From: Chlorobiaceae bacterium | GTDB lineage: Bacteria > Bacteroidota > Chlorobiia > Chlorobiales > Chlorobiaceae | Direction: 5' to 3' | DNA: 39,050 nucleotides | Assembly: GCA_013334925.1 (NCBI GenBank) | Contig: JAAXWP010000025.1 | Span: 1-39,050, forward strand | In this document: in pieces, positions 30,024 to 39,050 of the stretch | How the letters are laid out: each line of letters starts with the position of its first letter | How positions within the stretch are numbered: the first letter of the stretch is position 1 | The notes under the pieces: generated by a model | What the model was told of the DNA's origin: nothing | Database searches by the model: none | What the model saw: the letters and a program-made list of their open reading frames with translations, nothing else | Position numbers and translations under genes: made by a program

Positions 30024-30080
30024 TGGACGGTATGGACTGCATGGAGAAGATGGAGAAGCAAATATGCATAGCACATAACT

Positions 30081-30107
30081 GTCATCCTGAACAAAGTGAA
30101 GGATGAC
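30081..30107. repeat. Dispersed palindromic repeat, copy 1
   Basis: Perfect 8-bp stem GTCATCCT / AGGATGAC around a 10-11 base loop (gaacaaagtga). It belongs to the same family as the copies at 37003, 38480 and 38708, and lies between queG and the DUF456 gene. As a single-stem copy it may act as an mRNA hairpin. Confidence 0.75.
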
Positions 30108-36944: not shown

Positions 36945-37002
36945 TAAGGAACATTATTACTGCTGCCTCAGAAAGCCACCCGGAAATTCCGGAGAAAGGT
37001 CT

Positions 37003-37089
37003 GTCATTCTGAATGAAGCAAAGCGAAATGAAGAATCCATCGTATTACGAAACAATGAGTTCTGGATTCTTCGCTCCACTCAGAATGAC
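37003..37089. repeat. Dispersed palindromic repeat, copy 2 (inverted pair)
   Basis: Left arm GTCATTCTGA...GAAGAATCCA (37003-37039) and right arm TGGATTCTTCG...TCAGAATGAC (37063-37089) are inverted copies of one unit separated by 23 bases. It lies between nfo and ftsX, which converge. Confidence 0.8.
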
Positions 37090-37207
37090 ATCATCAACTA
37101 CCTTCTGCCTGACAGAAGACTGATCGCTTCATTGGCCATACCATTATGGACTGAAGGAACAACCACATGAAAACCGACCATAGCGGTGTCCCCTTTGTAC
37201 GTTTTCT

Positions 37208-38189: not shown

Positions 38190-38262
38190 GGGGCTATAGC
38201 TCAGTTGGTAGAGCATTTGCATGGCATGCAAAGGGTCAGGAGTTCGAGTCTCCTTAGCTCCA
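38190..38262 (+). tRNA. tRNA-Ala (anticodon GGC)
   Basis: A 73-base cloverleaf: acceptor GGGGCTA with TAGCTCC (one G-U), D stem GCTC/GAGC with AGTTGGTA loop, anticodon stem TTTGC/GCAAA with loop ATGGCAT (anticodon GGC at 38223-38225), T stem AGGAG/CTCCT with TTCGAGT loop, discriminator A at 38262. The CCA end is not encoded (CAA follows), so it must be added. A strong terminator follows directly. Confidence 0.97.
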
Positions 38263-38263
38263 C

Positions 38264-38292
38264 AAAAAAAGCGCAGGTAACTGCGCTTTTTT
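38264..38292 (+). terminator. Rho-independent terminator of tRNA-Ala
   Basis: Seven A, stem GCGCAG, loop GTAA, CTGCGC, then six T. The A and T tracts extend the stem, so it can act in both directions. Confidence 0.9.
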
Positions 38293-38479
38293 CATTTCCG
38301 GCAATTTCACCCCTTCTTTCAGCGAACAGCGACATCCCCTTGAGCACCCAGAGTGCGCTATAACCCGGGAGCGCCGAGCGCCTGCTCGGCATCTTCACAA
38401 ATTGGCTCGTATCGACCAGGCTCACTTCGCTTTATTACTCCAGCAACATCATGTCACAAATGAACGCCAGGCACCTTCT

Positions 38480-38565
38480 GTCATCCTGAACGAAGTGAAG
38501 GATCCATCTCCTTTTCATGAAAGGGGTTATGGATTCTGATCCTGACAGGTCAGGATCAGAATGAC
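38480..38565. repeat. Dispersed palindromic repeat, copy 3 (inverted pair)
   Basis: Left arm GTCATCCTGAACGAAG...GGATCCA (38480-38506) and right arm TGGATTCTGA...AGAATGAC (38530-38565). The right arm itself is a perfect 14-bp hairpin (38533-38546 / 38549-38562) with a two-base loop. Confidence 0.8.
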
Positions 38566-38656
38566 ATTGTCTGTTGTCATAGGTTATGATCTTTATTACC
38601 GGCATTAAAGCCGTAGCTTCAACTGTACCTGACTGCTTTTTCGATGAGATAAAGAT

Positions 38657-38887
38657 GAGGCTGTCTCAGAAGGGATTTACATATGTATTTTGCGTTTGTT
38701 CCTGAATGTCATCCTGAATGAAGTGAAGGATCCAGAATATTTAGGACCGCTTCATAAGCGATAGATATATAAAGCCTTACGAGATACTGCTGGATTCTTC
38801 GCCCGACTGTGTCGGACTCAGAATGACAAAAAAAATGAACGAACTGGCGTCAGTAAGCGGCTCTGTTGGTCCTTTTGAGACAGCCTC
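38657..38887. mobile_element. 231-bp MITE-like element with 17-bp terminal inverted repeats
   Basis: Left end GAGGCTGTCTCAGAAGG (38657-38673) and right end CCTTTTGAGACAGCCTC (38871-38887) match as inverted repeats at 16 of 17 positions. The element has no transposase gene. Its interior carries copy 4 of the palindromic repeat. Ends of this GGCTGTCTCA type are familiar from insertion-sequence families, but I cannot name the parent. No target-site duplication is evident. Confidence 0.65.
38708..38827. repeat. Dispersed palindromic repeat, copy 4 (inverted pair, nested)
   Basis: Left arm GTCATCCTGAATGAAG...GGATCCA (38708-38734) and right arm TGGATTCTTCGCC...TCAGAATGAC (38791-38827) with 56 bases between. 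It lies wholly inside the 231-bp element. Confidence 0.8.
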
Positions 38888-38898
38888 GTTCCCGGGTT

Positions 38899-39050
38899 TC
38901 AGCCCTTGCCTGCTCCCCGCACGGCCCTCGTCACCATGAAAATAATTCCGACCAGCAGCGACGCTGCCAGGCCTGCGCCGATATTCAGCCCTGCGGCGAC
39001 GACAACCGTCTTTGCCGGTAACACGACAACGGCCCCGGTCAACGGCGTGG
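38899..39050 (-). CDS. C-terminal end of an unidentified membrane protein (partial)
   Basis: The minus strand is open from the window edge to TGA at 38899, giving about 50 residues: a hydrophobic helix (VVVAAGLNIGAGLAASLLVG and on) followed by the basic tail TRAVRGAGKG. The codon use is like that of neighbouring genes. It is the end of an inner-membrane protein. I cannot assign a family from this fragment. Confidence 0.6.
   Translation of the reverse strand, partial: TPLTGAVVVLPAKTVVVAAGLNIGAGLAASLLVGIIFMVTRAVRGAGKG

Follow-up and report, generated by a model that had tools for sequence, protein, structure and literature searches.

Structure of the element and its surroundings

Within the window, by which we mean the whole 39,050-nucleotide stretch of Chlorobiaceae DNA that was analysed, a tRNA-Ala gene (38190-38263) is followed, 393 bp after it, by the start of a short palindrome-ended element (Table 1). 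The element lies just downstream of a minus-strand reading frame (38899-39048) that runs off the contig, and its closeness to the tRNA gene looks incidental. Immediately behind the tRNA (38264-38293) stands a hairpin with a T tract that looks like an ordinary terminator; Rfam matches there are weak and sub-threshold. An earlier note, made from the sequence alone, had described near-perfect inverted ends of 17 bp, a lack of coding capacity and an inverted-pair repeat in the interior. All of this holds on closer analysis: the ends pair at 16 of 17 positions and span 231 bp, there is no convincing gene in 38657-38887, and the arms of the inner pair recur without the shell at 38479-38566 and partly at 30080-30107. 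The latter is a single TGTCAT-tagged arm, and an inverted pair of such shell-less REP units is also found at 37002-37090. Compared with the description in excerpts of PMC3733652, the inner part of the element has the tag, AT-footed palindrome and inverted pairing of a head-head dimer of CGTC/TGTC REPs.

Table 1. Features at and around the element (window coordinates)
Feature	Position	Strand	Basis
Whole shell element (MITE-A copy), 231 bp	38657..38887	+	Sequence, genome matches, copy alignment
Left terminal inverted repeat GAGGCTGTCTCAGAAGG, 17 bp	38657-38673	+	Sequence and genome end-pattern count
Right terminal inverted repeat CCTTTTGAGACAGCCTC, 17 bp	38871-38887	-	16/17 pair with left end
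Left arm of inner TGTC-tagged REP dimer, TGTCATCCTGAATGAAGTGAAGGATCC	38707-38733	+	Alignment; class by comparison with excerpts of PMC3733652
Right arm of inner REP dimer, inverted partner GGATTCTTCGCCCGACTGTGTCGGACTCAGAATGACA, with CCCGACTGTGTCGG tip	38792-38828	-	Sequence, alignment
Left edge of decayed MITE-B host repeat	38636..38656	+	Last 20 bases: 19 match intact MITE-B
Right edge of MITE-B host repeat, GTTCCC	38888..38893	+	18-bp palindrome GCCGAGCTGGGGCTCGGC absent between edges
REP dimer of inner-pair class, without shell	38479..38566	+	Sequence comparison

A dispersed family with a composite interior

The 17-bp end pattern, with up to two mismatches, occurs 44 + 44 times in this genome (G000) as against 2 + 1 times for a reversed control, and a 261-bp query made of the element and short flanks has 59 genome matches at E ≤ 0.001, many of which cover its whole length; the element is therefore not a chance arrangement. 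In its inverted ends, short length, lack of a transposase gene and many dispersed copies it resembles a MITE, and the earlier interpretation as a MITE-like mobile unit is upheld by the many dispersed copies with inverted ends and no gene. Ends never found paired at 200-300 bp would have spoken against mobility, and in this genome the search proposed in the earlier note finds pairs at the element's own distance many times.

An alignment of 25 copies from this genome, from which partial copies such as L027, L037, L046, L047, L049 and L057 were omitted and in which L040 duplicates L039, comprises 19 long copies (219-241 bp) and 6 short ones (147-148 bp). The long copies are 73% to 98% identical to the copy in the window. 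All 19 carry the inner REP pair at the homologous place, and elsewhere in the genus there are genomes with composites like the window element at ~70-73% identity; the inner pair is thus an integral part of the element, and a composite unit in which shell and inner REP dimer were amplified together is secure. The earlier note had left two options, of which the inner repeat as part of the element stands and a recent jump of one repeat into the other does not. Lone REP dimers such as that at 38479-38566 do occur, but a jump of the inner repeat into the shell at the window locus is refuted by the long copies and can be given almost no credence; an ancient jump in an ancestor is possible.

The tip of the left REP arm is TCCCGACTTGTCGGGA-like in 6 long copies and of a short, ACGAAGTG-like type in 13. 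Judged from the alignment, the 148-bp form arose from the TCCCGACTTGTCGGGA-tip type through a deletion between CCCGACT repeats and subsequently spread, and its presence at six sites suggests that the shell moves with a changed interior. Tandem 7-bp repeats (ACTTGTC; L039, 1194-1270) directly adjoin a 148-bp copy. A second family, MITE-B, is represented by seven aligned copies (five of 243-244 bp, one of 239 and one of 134). Its ends are those of MITE-A, but its interior, which holds GGGAGCGCCGAGC..CAGCTCGGC as an inverted pair together with GCCGAGCTGGGGCTCGGC, is different. The unit is therefore defined by its ends rather than by what they enclose.

Some elements stand in the place of hairpins

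In intact MITE-B the order is ..GATAAAGCT GCCGAGCTGGGGCTCGGC GTTCCCAGG.., the middle segment being a palindrome of 18 bp. At three sites an element occupies exactly the place of this palindrome: the window copy (L001, 231 bp), a 148-bp copy (L042) and a copy of MITE-B itself (L056), with flanks that match intact MITE-B at 19, 18 and 14 of 20 bases on the left and 9, 11 and 11 of 12 on the right, respectively. REPs of this class have the form TGTCAT-hairpin-ATCC, and at four further loci (L023, L033, L043 and L048) the feet TGTYRT and ATCC directly flank an element and the REP hairpin is gone; the feet carry one change in L023 and one in L048, and the intact context of L043 is seen at L030 and L026. 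A 20-bp palindrome has been lost in the same manner where L091 retains AATAACGGAG GGCGGACATTCCTGTCCGCC ACATGGCGGGTT and L052 reads AATAACGGAG, MITE-B, ATTCAATGGCGGGTT. It is the comparison with intact homologous repeats of this genome that reveals the replacement of a palindrome; for an empty-site comparison, no usable relative of two phage-borne copies was found.

A replaced hairpin is thus recognised at 8 of 32 G000 elements (4 REP hairpins, 3 MITE-B palindromes and the 20-bp palindrome). Against replacement, none is recognised at the other 24 sites in this genome, the right flank of L052 agrees only after a 3-base shift (3/12 ungapped), and that of L043 agrees at only 7/12. The feet are enriched at element boundaries when compared with 19 shifted positions, in a test made on the same data after the sites had been found by reading alignments: TGTCAT, with one mismatch allowed, abuts 11 of 88 G000 boundaries (shifted-position mean 0.47, maximum 4), TGGAT 5 of 88 (mean 0.16, maximum 2) and GGGAAC 4 of 88 (mean 0.37, maximum 2). 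In G018 neither TGTCAT nor TGGAT is found at any of 38 boundaries, and CGGAG abuts six of them (control 0). At a minority of sites there is thus good support for an element that takes the place of an existing hairpin and keeps the bases just outside it.

Target duplications, which the earlier note had proposed to look for, did not turn up: a direct flank repeat of 3-9 bp is present at 0 of 32 G000 elements. Among 88 distant elements, direct repeats are at the level of shuffles except at n=4 (3 vs 0.73, p 0.025), and inverted-complementary flanks exceed shuffles at n=3 (21 vs 10.3), n=4 (13 vs 5.2) and n=5 (9 vs 2.5, a count reached in 0/2000 shuffles). In G000 such flanks number 11 vs 5.0 at n=2 (p 0.0035), and from n=3 upwards there is no excess. 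Since copies within one family are not independent, these p-values are too small. Inverted-complementary flanks are expected if it is the top of a stem that an element replaces, with the foot left in place; the paired A/T flanks seen elsewhere could be due to selection on terminators for their A and T tracts. AAAA abuts 67 of 282 boundaries in the distant loci (control mean 7.95, maximum 26), and of the features of a terminator the stem is present, with A/T tracts at many distant copies and none at the window copy. As RNA, the window element folds far better than shuffled sequences (z -5.94); Rfam gives nothing over 38657-38887 up to E = 1.

Shell ends in other genomes

The window element is matched in at least 24 of 61 genomes, its own included, and among the matches listed nearly all outside G000 cover the inner REP pair only. 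Of the 21 genus genomes, 20 contain the end itself with at most one mismatch, and it is most frequent in G000 (82) and G018 (54); the control gives 0 in these genomes, except 1 in G010. A scan of GTDB genomes located the exact end in at least 117 stretches, and among the 80 titled stretches listed most are from Bacteroidota and the others from Chlorobiota, Bacillota, Chloroflexota and Spirochaetota. In 54 of the 117 listed stretches, and in 0/117 after shuffling, the end is accompanied at 40-600 bp by a second, inverted one (≤3 mismatches in total), and 48 stretches of viral contigs carry the end. Of 394 genomes of the phylum, 10 have an exact-pair pattern at 121-151 bp, 8 at 90-120 bp and 7 at 152-182 bp; such patterns were found in 2 of 340 genomes of one class, both already known, and in 9 of 43 genomes of a sample chosen for having an end.

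Several genomes hold multiple copies: 27 of 119-121 bp in Bacillus methanolicus PB1, 15 of 108-109 bp in Flavobacterium soyae, 12 of 107-123 bp in an Anoxybacillus and 9 in a Chloroherpeton assembly (8 of 131 bp, one of 135). Paired shell ends at short distance occur in Bacteroidota, Chlorobiota and Bacillota around differing inner repeats. The interiors are mostly unrelated between groups, and many contain an inverted-pair repeat (e.g. TGTCATTCCCACGAAAGTGGGAATCC, GTCAGCCTGAGCGGAGTCGAAGGC, CTTTGCGTCTTTGCG, CTCTGTGTAACTCTGTG), so the nested arrangement of the earlier note is general. In G705 (L341, L347 and C395:13456-13587) one copy measures 136 bp and three measure 108 bp; the difference is a GC-rich palindrome in mid-element, which adds another example of a palindrome set at the apex.

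Proposed mechanism and alternative explanations

We propose, with a probability of about 0.6, that the window element is a non-autonomous, MITE-like shell around a REP dimer that replaces hairpins and is mobilised in trans by a putative enzyme. This enzyme would recognise the shell ends and cut a hairpin or cruciform, once extruded, at its foot, where the element would then be joined. It would thus arrive without target duplication, the resident hairpin being swapped out, palindrome for palindrome, and repeated swaps would lead to nested palindromes. More broadly, we speculate that several phyla share a structure-directed mobile system. In it, palindromes would be exchanged foot for foot for palindrome-ended elements, shells, REPs and the hairpins of terminators would serve as interchangeable modules, and each further swap would add to the nesting of intergenic palindromes; this may be the missing route by which CGTC-type REPs spread, a tentative extension that we do not hold with confidence.

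It is also possible, though we consider it rather unlikely, that the element is an ordinary MITE of a palindrome-preferring DDE insertion sequence, lost or outside the sampled loci, and that the hairpins disappeared later through palindrome instability. Inverted ends, the absence of a gene and a burst of copies would all be expected of such a MITE, and palindrome-targeting insertion sequences exist, as with IS1111 and REPs in the available part of PMC10969869. The families DUF772 (PF05598) and DDE_Tnp_1 (PF01609) are absent from G000 and G018, the genomes richest in ends, which removes either as a resident parent and fits a parent that was lost. The lack of target duplication among the 32 elements of this genome stands against this origin, as do the three sites that have lost one and the same palindrome exactly, which would require repeated and precise second events. 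The full insertion sequence with the same ends that the earlier note had suggested looking for was not encountered in 80 genome loci or in the DUF772 loci of the genus. In the 80 genome loci, end pairs 600-3200 bp apart enclose ordinary genes and nothing that makes a credible transposase unit (proteins judged by eye); the other 37 genome loci and 48 viral loci were covered for short pairs only. An IS1182/IS5 origin was rejected, as the DUF772 elements of other genus members begin with TAGGGCCTGCTGAA or AGGGCGTCTCTAAAAAG and not with shell ends. In Paenibacillus oryzisoli (L105, 2607-4727) two shell ends form a 42-bp hairpin with a T tract beside an IS110-like gene (by eye); this gene was discarded as a parent, since it lies next to the hairpin instead of being enclosed by two element ends.

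A single-strand Y1/HUH (RAYT-like) transposase acting on hairpins would account for the absence of target duplication, and GTAG-class REPs are tied to RAYTs, with scar-free excision of REPINs reported in the portions of PMC3733652 and PMC3116915 at hand. This genome has 8 Y1_Tnp matches. Against such an enzyme, none of 30 Y1 loci of the genus is flanked by shell ends on both sides, as a RAYT/TIRtron would be: L283 and L286 have a one-sided end, L291 has an end with 3 mismatches, and the rest have none. The number of Y1 genes does not track the number of ends (rho 0.13), Y1 is absent from 3 of 21 genus genomes that still have ends, and CGTC REPs have no linked transposase according to excerpts of PMC3733652. 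We therefore regard a Y1/HUH mobilisation as distinctly unlikely. Four Y1_Tnp genes of 325-339 aa, one of them at locus L301, lie on a single 44.6-kb contig of G000 (C59, 20690-43004). Several species (L283, L284, L286, L288 and L282) share a short Y1 gene that is bordered by CCCCGGACTGAAGTCCGGGGC-type palindromes and situated near a gene that is zwf-like by eye; two of these loci have one shell end, to one side of the gene. Less probable still is that the element is not mobile as such and is a functional hairpin cassette, a bidirectional terminator, copied through recombinational segment replacement. The strong fold and the AAAA outside distant boundaries favour such a cassette, and in the consulted sections of PMC2884548 the small variable loci of E. 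coli commonly undergo segment replacement; however, copy flanks are mostly unrelated, ends are sharp, and a single Bacillus genome holds 27 copies and a single Flavobacterium genome 15.

Relation to known systems

CGTC/TGTC REPs are mostly head-head dimers with no transposase linked to them (Di Nocera et al. 2013, PMC3733652, in excerpt), and the same excerpts report, for A. variabilis and H. neapolitanus, larger palindromes that enclose REP dimers. The inner pair of the present element resembles these REPs in its TGTC tag, AT-starting stem, ATCC tail and facing units; in contrast to what the excerpts describe, one shell end recurs here across phyla around different REPs, and the shell itself replaces REP hairpins. 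MITEs, as treated in part of PMC10969869, are likewise short, geneless, intergenic and present in many copies with inverted ends, whereas here there is no target duplication, no parent IS was found and palindromes are replaced. The clustered pneumococcal BOX, RUP and SPRITE elements (per the same part of PMC10969869) also lie within one another and are terminator-like, but their sequences differ, and they come to lie so by insertion, as opposed to the replacement described here. REPINs share the use of REP doublets as mobile units; they are RAYT-mobilised, and a comparable shell is not described in the available text of PMC3116915. In the small variable segments of E. coli one short segment, palindromic units included, replaces another in place, but in the excerpts of PMC2884548 these are defined by strain alignment and ascribed to recombination, without elements of defined ends. 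Within the literature searched, including parts of PMC3733652, PMC3116915, PMC2884548, PMC10969869 and PMC12306157, we found no description of the shell end sequence or of hairpin replacement by such elements.

As CGTC-type REPs are reported without a dedicated transposase in the available portion of PMC3733652, a shell with one conserved end that carries these REPs and also lands in their hairpins, its ends and target feet being known, offers a defined handle on their manner of spread. Genomes with 15-27 very similar copies are places to seek movement and the enzyme. Replacement instead of insertion would also explain the frequently nested, mosaic look of intergenic repeats.

Lengths of the elements

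Element lengths cluster at 98-101, 109, 118-120, 128-131 and 140-141 bp, and a period of 10.1 bp fits the 46 length states between 90 and 165 bp best (p 0.0025 by jitter). Seven newer length states disagree with this period (V -0.29; pooled p 0.0045), and an independent sample yielded no new families for the length test (2/340 genomes matched, both known). Helical phasing is not claimed, because the newer states went the opposite way; the ~10-bp periodicity is a possible lead. Three further loci agree with the period (109, 109 and 130 bp), and those of 109 bp may be relatives of a known family.
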